Notes under the pieces: model-generated
Database searches by the model: none
Seen by the model: the letters and a program-made list of their open reading frames with translations, nothing else
Told to the model about the DNA's origin: nothing
Shown: positions 22,317-27,083 of the stretch, in pieces
Layout of the letters: every line of letters begins with the position of its first letter
Numbering within the stretch: the first letter of the stretch is position 1
Program-made: the position numbers and the translations under genes
DNA from: an uncultured Anaerolineae bacterium
GTDB lineage: Bacteria > Chloroflexota > Anaerolineae > Aggregatilineales > Phototrophicaceae
Assembly: GCA_938022205.1 (NCBI GenBank)
Contig: CALIEB010000001.1
Location: 434,001 to 498,000, forward strand
Direction of reading: 5' to 3'
Length of the DNA stretch: 64,000 nucleotides

Positions 22317-22325
22317 TGGTAAGAT
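22317..22325 (+). promoter_or_regulatory. Extended -10 promoter of the E2-JAB-E1 cassette
   Basis: TGG-TAAGAT lies about 64 bases before the GTG start of the E2 gene, separating the cassette from the upstream operon. Confidence 0.55.
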
Positions 22326-22388
22326 GGAAACAGCTTGCAACCATCGCAGCCAAAAAACGTATGAATGATTGAATGTGGAGAGTGTGTC

Positions 22389-22850
22389 GTGACCAATTGG
22401 TGGGGGACACGTCAAGAAGTATCCGCGCGTTTGATTTGGGAAGTTGAGGCGATGAAAGCCACATTTGGTAGCACATTTAAGCTGATTGTGCCGCCGTTTA
22501 GCGGACTGCTCTATTGGGAAGGCACGGTAGAGATTAACCTGTCGGTGCTGACCACGCCCGAACACACGCTCAAAATCGTCTATCCCAAAGACTACCCCAA
22601 CCGTCCCGCCGAAGCATACTGCGTGCGCCCGCGCATCTACAGCGAAAAGCACCAATATGAGGACGGGCAGCTGTGTTTATTCAACCCCAAAGACGGCGAA
22701 CAGTACGGCTGGAATCCCAGCAAGTCCACCGCCGTCACGGTGACAGGTTGGGCGGTGCAATGGCTCTATGCCTACTACACGTGGCGCGCGACGGGCGTTT
22801 GGCCCGGCATCGAAGAGCGCATTTTGCCCGATTCAGACAAACGCAGGTAA
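22389..22850 (+). CDS. Bacterial E2-like ubiquitin-conjugating enzyme
   Basis: E2/UBC-fold protein of 153 residues, expected to carry a ubiquitin-like modifier as a thioester. The fold order is visible: a beta-meander (TFKLIVPPFSGLLYWEGTV, INLSVLTT), the YP motif HTLKIVYPKDYPNRPAE, then HQYEDGQLCLF with the catalytic cysteine at residue 96 (codon 22674-22676), and a tryptophan-rich C-terminal helix region (YGWNPSKST, WAVQWLYAYYTWR). The QLCLF context is characteristic of prokaryotic E2s found with JAB and ThiF-type genes. The GTG at 22389 has a GGAG site 8 bases upstream; an ATG at 22365 would add 8 residues. The JAB gene follows after 12 bases. Confidence 0.85.
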   Translation: MTNWWGTRQEVSARLIWEVEAMKATFGSTFKLIVPPFSGLLYWEGTVEINLSVLTTPEHTLKIVYPKDYPNRPAEAYCVRPRIYSEKHQYEDGQLCLFNPKDGEQYGWNPSKSTAVTVTGWAVQWLYAYYTWRATGVWPGIEERILPDSDKRR

Positions 22851-22862
22851 GAATAAGCAACC

Positions 22863-24044
22863 ATGAACGAGCCACGCTTCTGGCAAAACGTCCTTGAGGG
22901 ACTAGACATTATCGGCAAACGTATCAGAGGATTAGCCATGATTAGTCGCGGTATCGTACCTAACCTCATCGTGTCGCAGCAGGTGGTTGACCGCGTGCTG
23001 GAAGCCGCCAAGCAGCACCTTGAGGACGAAACAGGCGAAACAATGGTCGGCTTGCTGCTGGCAGCCAACGACGCGCCCGAAGCCATGCCGACCATTGTCG
23101 TGCTAGACACCATCGCGCCCGACGAAAGCAGCATCCGCCGCTCACACATGTTCGAACAAGGCGACGACCTGCAAGGCGACATCTTCGTGTGGCTGCTGGA
23201 AAACTGGGAAGCGTACTTGAAGCTGGGTAAGGACATGAAAGGCGCGCCCATCCGCCCCGAATGGCGCGTGCCGCTGCGCCACGTCGGCGACTGGCACAAG
23301 CAGCCCGGCTACATGGTTCAGCCTAGCGGAGGCGACTTGATGACCGCGCTGCAGTTTATGGCGGACGAGGAAAACGACCTTGAGTTCTTGCTCGTGCCGA
23401 TTGTGACGCTGGGGCATGACAATGTCACCCAAGAGGCGGGCGTGCGCGTCAACTATTTTACCGTGCCACAGCCCGACGGCACCAGCTTGCGCATGGATTG
23501 GTGGTACATCCATCGCGACAGCCGCTTCTTTCAGCCGATTATCCCGCAAATCGTCCCAGCCAAAGACCTGCCTGCCCTCACGCCCTACCCTTGGCACATC
23601 GTCGACAGCCAACTCTTGGACGAAGAACGCGGCATTCTCGAAGAAGAGGGCTTCTTCCTCATTGGTGACACCAACGTCATCATTGAGCTTGACGGCGATT
23701 TGCCGCTGGAAATTGGCTTTATCGTGGCGCACAAACAAACGCGCAAGGTGCTGCTGCTCGCCACCGACTGGGACCATCCTAAGCGTGCGCCAAAGGTACG
23801 CGTGGCAGAGTTCGCCAACGTGCGCGCCGACATGTACATCTTCGACATCTTCAAGATGCTGTGGGAACACGGCACGCCCGTGCCGCTGCCCGCAAACTTC
23901 ACGTGGAATGACCAGTCTTTTCTCGCTGACGCGGTGAAGGCAGTGGCGCACGTGTTAGATATTCCTCCCGCTGTGGTCAAAATCCCTGTAGAGGTTGACA
24001 GCGAAGACCAGCCCGAACCAAAACCCGAAGGAGACACGCCATGA
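22863..24044 (+). CDS. JAB/MPN-family putative deconjugase with C-terminal E2-like domain
   Basis: 393 residues. The N-terminal half is a JAB (Mov34/MPN) metalloprotease-like domain: ETGETMVGLLL (56-66) supplies the acidic residue, and HKQPGYMVQPSGGD (145-158) matches the JAMM spacing HxHx7Sx2D, except that the second histidine is Gln147. Active relatives cleave ubiquitin-like tails or conjugates. Residues about 255-367 look like a second E2/RWD fold: beta strands, then LLLATDWDHPKRAPKV (the YPxxPPxV-type motif), then FTWNDQSFLADAVKAVAHVL. This domain has no cysteine, so it cannot act as an E2. The last 25 residues are acidic and Pro-rich. The stop overlaps the E1 start (ATGA). Confidence 0.78.
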   Translation: MNEPRFWQNVLEGLDIIGKRIRGLAMISRGIVPNLIVSQQVVDRVLEAAKQHLEDETGETMVGLLLAANDAPEAMPTIVVLDTIAPDESSIRRSHMFEQGDDLQGDIFVWLLENWEAYLKLGKDMKGAPIRPEWRVPLRHVGDWHKQPGYMVQPSGGDLMTALQFMADEENDLEFLLVPIVTLGHDNVTQEAGVRVNYFTVPQPDGTSLRMDWWYIHRDSRFFQPIIPQIVPAKDLPALTPYPWHIVDSQLLDEERGILEEEGFFLIGDTNVIIELDGDLPLEIGFIVAHKQTRKVLLLATDWDHPKRAPKVRVAEFANVRADMYIFDIFKMLWEHGTPVPLPANFTWNDQSFLADAVKAVAHVLDIPPAVVKIPVEVDSEDQPEPKPEGDTP

Positions 24045-24940
24045 CATGGCAGCGCGTAGAAAAACTGTTTGGCAAAGACAACTTGCAGCTCTTGCGCGAA
24101 AAGCGCGTAGGCATAGTCGGCTTGGGCAGCGGCGGTGGCTTCGTCGCGCTCAGCCTCGCCATGAGCGGCGTAGGACATTTCGTGCTGGTCGATGACGACG
24201 TGCTGGAAGAGGTCAACATCGTGCGCCACGTCGCCGACCGCCGTTATTTGGGGATGAACAAGGCGGAGGCGGTCGCTGACCTCATTCGCCAGCGCAACCC
24301 CAACGCCCAAGTGACCGTCATCCCCGAGCGCGTACAGGCTCACGAGGACGCGCTTAAAGGGCTGGACATCTTGGTCGTGGGCGTGGACGGCGAAAACACC
24401 AAGTACATCCTCAACGAGATGTGCTTGCGGCTGCGGCTGACGGCGGTCTACGCCGGCGTGTATGAGCGCGGCGAAGGCGGCGATGTCGTCATCATCCGCC
24501 CTTACGACGGACCGTGTTACGCCTGCTGGTCAGAAGCCCTGCGCGGCGGCGCGCGCATCACCAAAGACCCCAACACGCAAGAGCTAGACTACGGCATGAT
24601 TGGCGCGGACGGCACGCTAGAAGCCGAGCCCGGACTTTGGACGCACGTCGTCAAGGTAGCTAGCGTGCAAACCGACCTCATCCTCAACGAGCTACTGCGC
24701 GGCACGTCCGTGCATGAGGTCATGCCCGCCAACACGCTCATCTTGGCGAACAACGCGCTAGAAATCATGGAGGGCGAAATCAATGCCCCGCACACCGCGC
24801 TGTGGGTGAACATTGAGCGCAACCCCGATTGTCTGGTGTGCGGCGACCGCATGCGCCTCGCCGATGAATCCGCGCAACGCTTAAGTCTCGACGCGCTAGC
24901 GGACAGCAGCGGCGTTGTCTTTGAGGAAGATGAGGCTTAG
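24041..24940 (+). CDS. ThiF/MoeB-family E1-like adenylating enzyme
   Basis: Activates the C-terminus of a ubiquitin-like protein as an acyl-adenylate. The 299 residues show the ThiF fold: VGLGSGGG (26-33) for ATP, VDDDVLEEVNIVRH (50-63) with the acidic and Asn/Arg residues, and GVDGENT (114-120). The structural zinc site is CYAC (159-162) with CLVC (264-267). Between these pairs there is no cysteine, where E1s that form a thioester usually carry one, so it resembles MoeB in chemistry, or passes the modifier straight to the E2 cysteine. It is the third gene of the cassette. A new promoter follows, so the operon ends here. Confidence 0.87.
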   Translation: MTWQRVEKLFGKDNLQLLREKRVGIVGLGSGGGFVALSLAMSGVGHFVLVDDDVLEEVNIVRHVADRRYLGMNKAEAVADLIRQRNPNAQVTVIPERVQAHEDALKGLDILVVGVDGENTKYILNEMCLRLRLTAVYAGVYERGEGGDVVIIRPYDGPCYACWSEALRGGARITKDPNTQELDYGMIGADGTLEAEPGLWTHVVKVASVQTDLILNELLRGTSVHEVMPANTLILANNALEIMEGEINAPHTALWVNIERNPDCLVCGDRMRLADESAQRLSLDALADSSGVVFEEDEA

Positions 24941-24949
24941 CGCGCTTGA

Positions 24950-24978
24950 TTGACGCGAGTTGCTATCTCTCTTATACT
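24950..24978 (+). promoter_or_regulatory. Promoter of the 89-aa protein/PCMT/Nudix operon
   Basis: TTGACG (24950-24955), a 17-base spacer and TATACT (24973-24978). It starts within 10 bases of the E1 stop codon. Confidence 0.75.
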
Positions 24979-25016: not shown

Positions 25017-25286
25017 ATGAGCGAAAGAAACCGATTTCCCTACGACGACGATGACAAGTTTGACCGCTTAACCAGCCAAACACCCGACGACGCACAGGGC
25101 ATGACCAGCCGCCTTGAGCGGTTGGGCGGCGAACCCGCACCGATGATAACGCCCGAAGAGTTCGCGCGGCTGCAAAAGGCTGGGCAAGTTCACATCGACG
25201 CGCGCGGGCGCGTGCGCACCGCCAGCAGCAGCGGGCCCAACGCGGGCGTATCGCTGCGCAAACGGCGTGCTTGGTATGGACGATAA
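25017..25286 (+). CDS. Small charged protein of unknown function
   Basis: 89 residues, not recognised. The N-terminal 40 residues are acidic and probably disordered (YDDDDKFDRL, TPDDAQ) and contain RLERLGGEPAP. The C-terminal half has a short helix (TPEEFARLQKAGQ), then a basic Ser/Gly-rich tail. It sits between the E1 gene and the methyltransferase, under its own promoter. The internal RLGGE recalls modifier tails, but only 38 residues precede it, too few for a beta-grasp fold. The gene overlaps the next by 11 bases. Confidence 0.6.
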   Translation: MSERNRFPYDDDDKFDRLTSQTPDDAQGMTSRLERLGGEPAPMITPEEFARLQKAGQVHIDARGRVRTASSSGPNAGVSLRKRRAWYGR

Positions 25287-26457
25287 GACGCGGCAGCTGC
25301 GCAGTCAAATGATTCGCGCTATATGGAAGGAAGGCACAGTGCCCACCCCTAAGCTGCGTGATGCCTTCCTCGAAGTGCCACGCCACGTCTTCTTACCCAA
25401 CTTGCCGGTCGAGAAAGCCTATGAGGACACCTCCGTGCCGCTTAAGACCAACGCCAGCGGCATGGTCACCGCCTCCGTCAGCCAGCCTACTATGATGGCG
25501 ATCATGCTCGACCAGCTACAGCTTAAGGCGGGTGACAACGTGTTGGAAATTGGCACCGCCAGCGGCTACAACGCGGCGATTATGCAGTATCTGGTGGGCG
25601 ACAGTGGACATGTCACCACCATAGAGATTGACAAAGAACTCGCCGAGCAGGCGGAGCGCAACCTTATTCGTGCCAACATGGGGCAGGTCAAAGTTGTCCA
25701 CGCCGACGGCGCGGTTGGCTACGCGCCGCGCGCCGCCTATGACCACATCATTGCCACTGTCGGCGTGTGGGACATCCCGCCGCTGTGGACAAAACAGCTC
25801 AAGGACAGCGGGCGCATCGTCGCGCCGATTTGGATTGACGGCGTGCAGATGAGCGCGTGCTTCACCAAGCAACCCGACGGCACGCTGCTGAGCAAGGACA
25901 ATCGCGGCTGCGCGTTCGTGTACATGCAGGGCGCGGACGCTATGCCCGACATGCGCCGCCAAGTCGCTAGCAGCGCGCTGACAATTATCTCCGACGCGGT
26001 CGAAGCTATCGACACCGTGCGCTTGCACACCTTGCTCAGCGACGACAGCGGCATCTGTAACCTTGACAGCCGCCTTAGCCCGCGCCAGTATTGGGACGGC
26101 TTCCAACTCTATTTGATGCTGAACATCCCCCCCAACACGCACTTTGTGCTGTACGCGGTGCGCGAAGACCGCAACGCCTATGGGCTAGAAAAACGCGGCG
26201 TGGCGTTGATTATGCCCACCGCCGCTGCTTTTGTCCCCTACCATGAGATGGGCGTATGCCACTGCTTCGGCGGCTCGGACGCTTATCTGCACATGCAAGA
26301 GGCACTTGATGCGTGGGATGCCAGCGGTCGCCCCAATGCCCACCTGCTGCGCCTGCGCCTCATTCCTAAAACACAGCCTAAACCCGACATCACACACGGC
26401 AAGCTCTACGAACGCCGTCATCACTACTTACACGCATGGTTAGAAACATCACCCTAG
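25276..26457 (+). CDS. Protein-L-isoaspartate O-methyltransferase-like protein, extended
   Basis: SAM-dependent methyltransferase of the PCMT family, which repairs isoaspartyl residues in aged proteins. 393 residues from the ATG at 25276. The PCMT domain covers about 1-215: FLEVPRHVFLP, YEDTSVPL, the substrate segment SQPTMMAIMLDQLQ, the SAM loop VLEIGTASGYNAAIM, and DHIIATVGVWDIPPLW (family: T-x-GxxxIP). Ordinary PCMTs have about 210 residues. Here about 180 extra residues form a second domain that I cannot assign. A GTG at 25267 is an alternative start. The end overlaps the Nudix gene by 22 bases. Confidence 0.85.
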   Translation: MDDKTRQLRSQMIRAIWKEGTVPTPKLRDAFLEVPRHVFLPNLPVEKAYEDTSVPLKTNASGMVTASVSQPTMMAIMLDQLQLKAGDNVLEIGTASGYNAAIMQYLVGDSGHVTTIEIDKELAEQAERNLIRANMGQVKVVHADGAVGYAPRAAYDHIIATVGVWDIPPLWTKQLKDSGRIVAPIWIDGVQMSACFTKQPDGTLLSKDNRGCAFVYMQGADAMPDMRRQVASSALTIISDAVEAIDTVRLHTLLSDDSGICNLDSRLSPRQYWDGFQLYLMLNIPPNTHFVLYAVREDRNAYGLEKRGVALIMPTAAAFVPYHEMGVCHCFGGSDAYLHMQEALDAWDASGRPNAHLLRLRLIPKTQPKPDITHGKLYERRHHYLHAWLETSP

Positions 26458-27083
26458 ACGACATTCGCCGCGCCCTCGCGCTGCCGGACGCACAGGTGCA
26501 AACTATCCGCCAGCGCATGACCCCGCGCCCCAACGGTCTGGCGCAGTCCGTGCCGCCGCGCAAGGCGGGCGTGCTGGTGCTGCTGTTCCCGCAAGGCGCG
26601 CCTGACGCTTGGCACGTGCTGCTCACGCGCCGCACCGACCACCTGCGCGGACACAGCGGACAAGTCAGCTTCCCGGGCGGGCAGTACGACGACAAAGATC
26701 CGGACTTTGCCTACACTGCGCTGCGCGAAACTTGCGAAGAGCTGGGCATTTGCCAGCCCATTCCCCTGCTCGGGCAGCTGAGCAAGGTCTATATTCCCCC
26801 CTCTAACTTCGACGTGTACCCCAGCGTGGGCTGGCTCACGACGCTGCCGCCGCTGTGTCCCAACCCTGATGAGGTAGCAGAAGTGTTCAGCATGTCGCTG
26901 CAGGCTCTGCTCGACCCCACCACTAAACAGCACGAGGTGCGCACGATACAAGGCTACAGCGTGCAAGTGCCGTACTACGCCGTGCAAGGTCATAAGGTGT
27001 GGGGCGCGACCGCCGCCATGCTCGGCGAGCTTGAGGGCAGGCTGCGGCTCGCGCTGGGACTGCCGCTCGACGAGCGCACCTAA
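26436..27083 (+). CDS. Nudix hydrolase, CoA pyrophosphatase (CoAse) type
   Basis: Cleaves CoA or related nucleotide diphosphate derivatives. The 215 residues show the CoAse layout: LLTRRTDHLRGHSGQVSFPGG with the UPF0035-type segment before the Nudix box, and the box itself GGQYDDKDPDFAYTALRETC-EELGI. The REXXEE helix residues that bind magnesium are present. Substrate assignment is by family resemblance only. It is the last gene of the operon, followed by a strong bidirectional hairpin. Confidence 0.88.
   Translation: MVRNITLDDIRRALALPDAQVQTIRQRMTPRPNGLAQSVPPRKAGVLVLLFPQGAPDAWHVLLTRRTDHLRGHSGQVSFPGGQYDDKDPDFAYTALRETCEELGICQPIPLLGQLSKVYIPPSNFDVYPSVGWLTTLPPLCPNPDEVAEVFSMSLQALLDPTTKQHEVRTIQGYSVQVPYYAVQGHKVWGATAAMLGELEGRLRLALGLPLDERT

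Follow-up and report, generated by a model that had tools for sequence, protein, structure and literature searches.

A near-universal E2-JAB-E1 cassette of the Aggregatilineales and its candidate partner proteins: a possible clade-specific conjugation system

The stretch analysed here (the window, 64,000 nucleotides; positions 434,001 to 498,000 of contig CALIEB010000001.1, assembly GCA_938022205.1) stems from an uncultured Anaerolineae bacterium of the family Phototrophicaceae and carries a three-gene cassette for a ubiquitin-conjugating E2-like protein, a JAB/MPN-domain protein, and a ThiF-type E1 (Table 1). This cassette proved to be near-universal in five families of the order Aggregatilineales (Anaerolineae, Chloroflexota). 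An initial annotation of the same DNA had described it as a self-contained E2-JAB-E1 operon with its own promoter and without a recognizable modifier. The order of the genes, their coordinates, and all three assignments were confirmed, and both the 12-base gap between E2 and JAB and the 4-base ATGA overlap between JAB and E1 are exact. The order E2-JAB-E1 is constant in all of the approximately 40 relative loci whose neighbourhoods were read. A few relatives (L052, L053, L063, L070) have small open reading frames located between JAB and E1, which look spurious or unrelated on reading. Neither a nucleotidyltransferase nor a beta-grasp gene adjoins the cassette, as had been claimed, and this is true for the window and for the neighbourhoods of the relatives alike; a beta-grasp gene beside the cassette, which had been named as the finding that would speak against the claim, was present in no relative examined. 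However, the region upstream of E2 yielded no sigma-70-like site, so the claim of an own promoter could not be upheld. A single good match was obtained, between E1 and a small downstream gene, here called c6, and in this genome c6 thus has its own promoter-like sequence. Nor is the cassette self-contained: in relatives, c6 directly follows E1 and a gene pair, c4a and c4b, directly precedes E2, and both track the cassette. The PCMT/Nudix genes had been regarded as simply a separate downstream operon, but its first gene here is c6, not PCMT, and PCMT adjoins c6 in only part of the order.

Table 1. Features of the cassette and its downstream neighbours (positions refer to the window).
Feature	Position	Strand	Remarks
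E2-like (UBC fold) protein	22365..22850	+	161 amino acids as listed; PADLOC E2 models, profile matches
JAB/MPN-domain protein	22863..24044	+	393 amino acids; AlphaFold model and fold search
JAMM motif region: E56, H145, Q147 (second-His position), S155, D158	23028..23336	+	Motif GDWHKQPGxmxxPSxGD
Second, C-terminal domain of JAB protein, probable RWD/UBC-like fold without Cys	23580..23960	+	Weak support
E1-like (ThiF/MoeB type) adenylating enzyme	24041..24940	+	299 amino acids; Pfam ThiF
E1 C-terminal tail with S-L-x-x-L motif (LSLDALADSSGVVFEEDEA)	24881..24937	+	Motif itself at 24884-24898
Sigma-70-like promoter TTGACG-17-TATACT, 5' of c6	24950..24978	+	10/12 matches; consensus scan only
c6, small conserved protein	25017..25286	+	89 amino acids; candidate activated protein or target; adjoins E1 in many relatives
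PCMT (protein-L-isoaspartate O-methyltransferase)	25267..26457	+	Pfam PCMT 5e-50; neighbour, outside the proposed system
Nudix hydrolase	26436..27083	+	Neighbour, outside the proposed system

The E2 was recognized by many PADLOC E2 models (best 2.8e-15), and its profile matches include human UBCH7 as well as 8hsb, a bacterial E2 of known structure. The relatives start with M-(S/A)-x-WWG, which makes the GTG at 22389 the probable true start and would give a protein of 153 amino acids. The codon of the catalytic Cys104 lies at 22674-22676 within the motif KHQxEDGQLCLFNPxDG, and in an alignment of 35 sequences H96, D100, G101, C104, W116, N117, and P118 are invariant. The E1 comprises a single ThiF domain (PF00899, 7.3e-34), and MccB, a solved E1-like homologue, and UBA5 are among its matches; MccB acts on a non-ubiquitin peptide. 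The E1 has two CxxC pairs, C159/C162 and C264/C267, whose four cysteines are invariant across 40 of 40 sequences; outside these pairs, no cysteine is conserved in the same set. At the site of PSCAEGG in the genome's own MoeB, the E1 family of the cassette reads LDYGMI. From this pattern, the acyl group would have to pass straight from the adenylate to the E2, unless a CxxC cysteine of the E1 is the nucleophile. We keep the claim of a missing cysteine cautious, since the predicted E1 site of E. coli Cap2, C493/C496, has CxxC spacing as well (PMC10097602).

For the JAB protein, sequence matches are faint, with PADLOC JAB models reaching only 3e-6 and Pfam giving no match. Structure prediction had been proposed as a means to overturn this assignment; instead, the AlphaFold model (predicted local distance difference test score, pLDDT, of 88.8) displays an MPN fold at residues 31-239, for which a fold search returned Z values of about 15 to BRCC36 and the Caldiarchaeum Rpn11 homologue. 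The spacing of the JAMM motif is exact and E56, H145, S155, and D158 are invariant in the alignment, but H-K-Q replaces H-x-H in 34 of 40 sequences (the window and 33 relatives), while H-K-H is kept in 6 of the 40. Measured against the zinc motif of JAMM (MPN+) enzymes, E plus HxH(x7)SxxD, the protein of the window deviates by Q147 at the position of the second His. One zinc ligand is therefore Gln in most members, and the activity of the JAB protein may be reduced or altered. HxH is kept at locus L048 (G012:C19) and at the loci of family f7, and HxQ is found elsewhere in the order. Residues 240-366 constitute a second domain, modelled with a pLDDT above 90 as helix, beta meander, YPxxxP signature, helix, and helix. 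When this domain of 29 homologues was compared with Pfam at E<=10, only UQ_con (one member, 0.0087) and RWD (one member, 0.12) appeared; its profile showed no similarity to the E2 alignment, PDB sequences gave no match, and the fold search of the JAB model was dominated by the MPN domain. The model is consistent with a fold that is probably RWD/UBC-like and Cys-less. The initial annotation had mentioned neither the HxQ change nor this second domain, nor the lack of a dedicated catalytic cysteine in the E1.

With regards to distribution, a JAB match was obtained in 130 of 151 related genomes and in 83 of the 88 high-quality ones, and the named homologues in databases are from Anaerolineae/Aggregatilineales metagenome-assembled genomes. 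A phylum-wide sample of 400 yielded close E2 and c6 matches only in its two members of the window's own family. In the concatenated E2-JAB-E1 tree, families f3, f4, f7, and f8 are monophyletic, and so is f1 if a single long branch at the midpoint root is set aside. The RpoB tree places the cassette-positive families together, with the negative families f2 and f5 outside and f6 inside, the position of f6 being weakly supported and based on one partial sequence. Family f6 is without the cassette, c6, and c4, and as it probably branches inside the positive clade, it would represent a co-loss of all of them. Judging from these trees, the cassette is inherited vertically like a core gene and not as a mobile defence island. 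As to the biology, the earlier comparison with mobile Bil and CBASS (cyclic oligonucleotide-based antiphage signaling system) operons is therefore misleading, given the vertical inheritance of the cassette and its near-universal presence in the clade.

Distant E2 relatives in the phylum sit in other operons. Loci L191 and L192, from other Chloroflexota, hold a more extensive E2-JAB-E1 operon that also encodes another JAB protein, TPR and RWD proteins, and membrane proteins; its JABs are of the HxH type, and it likewise lacks an evident small modifier. At L193 and L194, from two genomes of another Anaerolineae family, the E2 lies beside a nucleotidyltransferase in a CBASS-like manner, surrounded by large helicase or methyltransferase-like genes. 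A contig labelled as Bacteroidetes (L172, JAPUDW010000137.1) also has the cassette, with 75% E2 identity to Aggregatilineales, and is probably mislabelled or misbinned.

The protein encoded by c6 consists of a variable acidic and proline-rich N-terminus, the core ERLGGEPAPxITPEEFARLQxAGxxxxDxRGRVR, and a C-terminal SLRKRRAWY followed by a short tail. In many relatives, c6 directly follows E1 with a gap of -4 to +15. Across the 151 genomes, cassette and c6 are both present in 125 and both absent in 18, with five genomes holding the cassette alone and three holding c6 alone (phi 0.79); the latter three are at most 80% complete. Direct inspection of seven cassette-negative loci showed c6 to be missing in each. 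The Nudix gene, in contrast, occurs in all 21 cassette-negative genomes, and 18 of the cassette-positive ones lack it (phi -0.15). From these contrasting co-occurrences it can be concluded that c6 follows the cassette rather than Nudix, and it is the only small conserved gene that travels with the cassette. The role of an ordinary partner of the Nudix/PCMT operon was rejected as the main explanation for c6, as Nudix occurs without c6 in cassette-negative genomes and c6 without Nudix throughout one genus.

Conservation in c6 reaches the residue after AWY, which is G, A, or V in 40 of 55 sequences compared to 26% expected, and is followed by an unconserved stretch of 0-4 residues, rarely more, reminiscent of precursors that undergo trimming. 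This residue recalls the Gly/Ala C-terminus of the cGAS in Cap2/Cap3 operons. No usable match to c6 was found in Pfam, NCBIfam, or PDB, and its AlphaFold model, a helix and a hairpin, is of low confidence (mean pLDDT 65). A beta-grasp modifier is not apparent from this model, nor is there a fixed C-terminal Gly, and a Pup-type modifier is not apparent from the C-terminus, where GGE/GGQ is lacking and 59 sequences end variably after KRRAWY; no search aimed at PafA was made.

The second partner, c4, is a tandem pair of paralogous genes whose products have N-terminal hydrophobic segments and a C-terminal domain, with no usable match in Pfam, NCBIfam, or PDB. The pair lies directly upstream of E2 in families f3, f4, f7, and f8, and a profile search detected c4 in 24 of 24 cassette-positive and in none of eight cassette-negative genomes. 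In the genome of the window, the tandem pair is located on another contig (G000:C24, approximately 76530-78226), where it has no consistent neighbours. A motif S-L-x-x-L within the last 60 amino acids is common to 39 of 40 E1 and 20 of 21 c4 sequences, compared to 11 of 333 background open reading frames, which suggests that the E1 and the putative membrane proteins dock to one site. The motif sits in disordered-looking tails of the E1 and of both c4 paralogues.

The search for a modifier covered several families. A ThiS-family (PF02597) protein was found in 24 of 24 cassette-positive genomes tested, but also in seven of eight cassette-negative ones, and was rejected as a marker of the cassette because it is ubiquitous and does not discriminate. 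The only such protein found in this genome (G000:C38:6015-6272) carries an internal IAGG with a membrane domain behind it. At this locus (L002, G000:C38:5781-9227), one open reading frame combines the MoaD-like and the membrane domain and adjoins a thioredoxin-like protein and a MoeB-rhodanese; longer frames of this kind are also seen in relatives. Prok_Ub (PF14454) was likewise rejected, as it is absent from this genome and its matches in six cassette-positive relatives lie in PRTRC-type operons. Such operons, observed in several Aggregatilineales genomes (L248-L253), encode a Prok_Ub protein of 64-79 amino acids ending in GRKG/GKKG and, in most, a ThiF-like protein. The ubiquitin (PF00240) search gave no match anywhere, controls included, and is hence uninformative.

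Gene content, conservation, co-inheritance, folds, and the shared motif are established by these data, and we give about an even chance to their best explanation, a clade-specific and chromosomally fixed conjugation system of the Aggregatilineales with c6, c4a, and c4b as dedicated partners. The catalytic steps, the membrane topology, and the role of c6 that we deduce for such a system are as follows. The E1 would adenylate the C-terminus of a partner protein, and Cys104 of the E2 would accept the acyl group, coming either from the adenylate or from one of the CxxC cysteines, and hand it to a target; this route is proposed because the E1 has no dedicated thioester cysteine. The JAB/MPN protein with its probable RWD-like domain could bind, trim, or remove the conjugate, and the enzymes could be brought to the membrane by one docking site for the S-L-x-x-L tails of E1 and c4. 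As the activated protein, c6 would be the most economical choice, acting as its own modifier like cGAS in CBASS. It is the first candidate for activation because of the analogy to Cap2/Cap3, where the protein is a neighbour-encoded cGAS with a Gly/Ala C-terminus, even though by our estimate c6 is rather unlikely to be the activated protein. We are doubtful of the more specific version, in which c6 is a non-beta-grasp modifier or self-conjugating protein whose KRRAWY(G/A) end is activated by the Cys-poor E1, loaded onto the E2, and attached to targets at the membrane via c4 in a housekeeping function and not in defence.

Several observations weigh against a dedicated system built around c6. The C-terminal residue of c6 is not fixed, with 0 to 29 residues after AWY, and c6 would therefore need trimming, for which the putative enzyme is a JAB with a degraded zinc site (HxQ) in most members. 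Where cassette and c6 have parted, by 150 kb in genome G096 and onto other contigs in several, c6 keeps PCMT/Nudix and not E1. Moreover, the co-occurrence amounts to approximately one gain and one probable joint loss, a pattern in which unrelated clade-specific genes would look alike, and its significance consequently overstates the independence of the genomes. It could be that c6 and c4 are unrelated inventions of the same clade and that the three enzymes work alone on a target of their own, in line with the origin of all of them on about the same branch and with the position of c6 beside Nudix/PCMT even far from the cassette. However, in sister families c4, E2, JAB, E1, and c6 directly adjoin in one operon, all are jointly absent from f6, and E1 and c4 have a motif in common. 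Co-occurrence combined with operon adjacency and the shared motif lifts the linkage above coincidence, and we regard independent inventions as unlikely.

The main rival to c6 as the activated protein is a housekeeping beta-grasp modifier of the MoaD/ThiS/CysO type that would be encoded away from the cassette and also serve the MoeB pathway, with c6 and c4 as targets or adaptors. Iyer et al. proposed in 2006 that such systems use an available ThiS/MoaD (PMC1779556), and a ThiS-family protein, adjoining MoeB-rhodanese in this genome, accompanies the cassette in every positive genome tested. However, its presence in nearly all negative genomes tested means that there is no specific link, no ThiS-family gene lies near the cassette, and MoaD already has a dedicated E1 (MoeB) beside it; we assign this alternative a low probability. 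Quite unlikely in our view is a dedicated ubiquitin-like or other modifier elsewhere that is too diverged for the profiles used. The Prok_Ub and ubiquitin profiles are insensitive, the latter being blank even for controls, and the genome is 93% complete, which leaves some room for such a gene, but the Prok_Ub matches of the relatives belong to PRTRC-type plasmid operons and c6 alone among small conserved genes travels with the cassette. It is improbable that the cassette no longer conjugates, the JAB serving as a pseudo-enzyme scaffold and the E1 only adenylating, as in sulfur transfer or the chemistry of small molecules. While HxQ in most JABs and the lack of a dedicated Cys in the E1 would fit, the most conserved residues include the catalytic Cys of the E2 and those around it, and no rhodanese or sulfur-metabolism gene belongs to the conserved neighbourhood. 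An anti-phage defence system of the CBASS or Bil type appears highly improbable and is rejected on distribution: the best defence-library matches of E2, E1, and JAB are indeed CBASS components, but inheritance is vertical and near-universal, and no cyclase, effector, or defence neighbour occurs at the loci read.

Bacterial E1-E2-JAB systems of known biology are mostly mobile anti-phage systems. Here, almost all genomes from five families of a free-living order have retained the cassette, which speaks for a core function of ubiquitin-like conjugation in the bacterial cell. With E2, JAB, E1, c6, c4a, and c4b, there is a short gene list from which the activated protein can be sought, and if c6 were that protein, modifiers would not need to be ubiquitin-like or Pup-like.

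For comparison with known systems, type II CBASS with Cap2/Cap3 and the E2-only type II-short CBASS resemble the cassette in using E1, E2, and JAB components without a beta-grasp modifier, and the PADLOC matches named above make CBASS components its closest defence-library sequences. In Cap2/Cap3 operons, the activated protein is the neighbour-encoded cGAS, which is not a beta-grasp protein and ends in a C-terminal Gly or Ala (PMC10097602). In contrast to type II CBASS, there is no CD-NTase among the conserved neighbours here and no effector. There, E1 and E2 are fused as Cap2 with the JAB Cap3 separate, whereas here all are separate proteins with the JAB between them, extended by a probable RWD-like domain and accompanied by the HxQ motif and putative membrane partners. 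The patchy spread of mobile defence islands also differs from a cassette in 83 of 88 high-quality genomes whose tree follows families. Bil (BilABCD) and related ubiquitination operons likewise combine E1, E2, and JAB in one operon, but Bil has a modifier of two beta-grasp domains and an E1 with an inactive and an active adenylation domain as well as a Cys domain (PMC11354881). The 299-residue E1 described here has a single adenylation domain, no Cys is conserved between its CxxC pairs, and in place of an adjacent beta-grasp protein the sole conserved small neighbour is c6.

Pup/UBact can be compared with c6 in so far as the model of this small protein is largely disordered, but c6 is without the GGE/Q end. 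Pup-type ligation employs PafA, not E1/E2, on a defined C-terminal GGE/Q. UFM1 offers a mechanistic parallel only. UBA5 has a catalytic cysteine, and the system has a beta-grasp modifier. In common with the E1 of the cassette, UBA5 is a small single-domain E1 without a separate Cys domain; it carries short linear motifs beyond its adenylation domain, and docking by such E1 tail motifs is the parallel to the S-L-x-x-L tail (PMC5428781). The operon classes 6a-6e of prokaryotic E1/E2/JAB genes, described as patchy and mobile, are similar in gene content, and class 6e includes catalytically inactive RWD/E2-like domains; however, none was described with E2-JAB-E1 as three proteins together with c6 and c4, or with order-wide fixation (PMC1779556). 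The broad definition of these classes comprises what the cassette contains, namely a ThiF-type E1, a UBC-fold E2 with catalytic Cys, and a JAB/MPN protein; the definition also includes an activated and conjugated modifier, for which c6 and MoaD are the candidates. The cassette would thus work like a bacterial E1-E2-JAB conjugation system while belonging neither to CBASS nor to Bil, and its best placement is as a variant within the prokaryotic E1-E2-JAB class.

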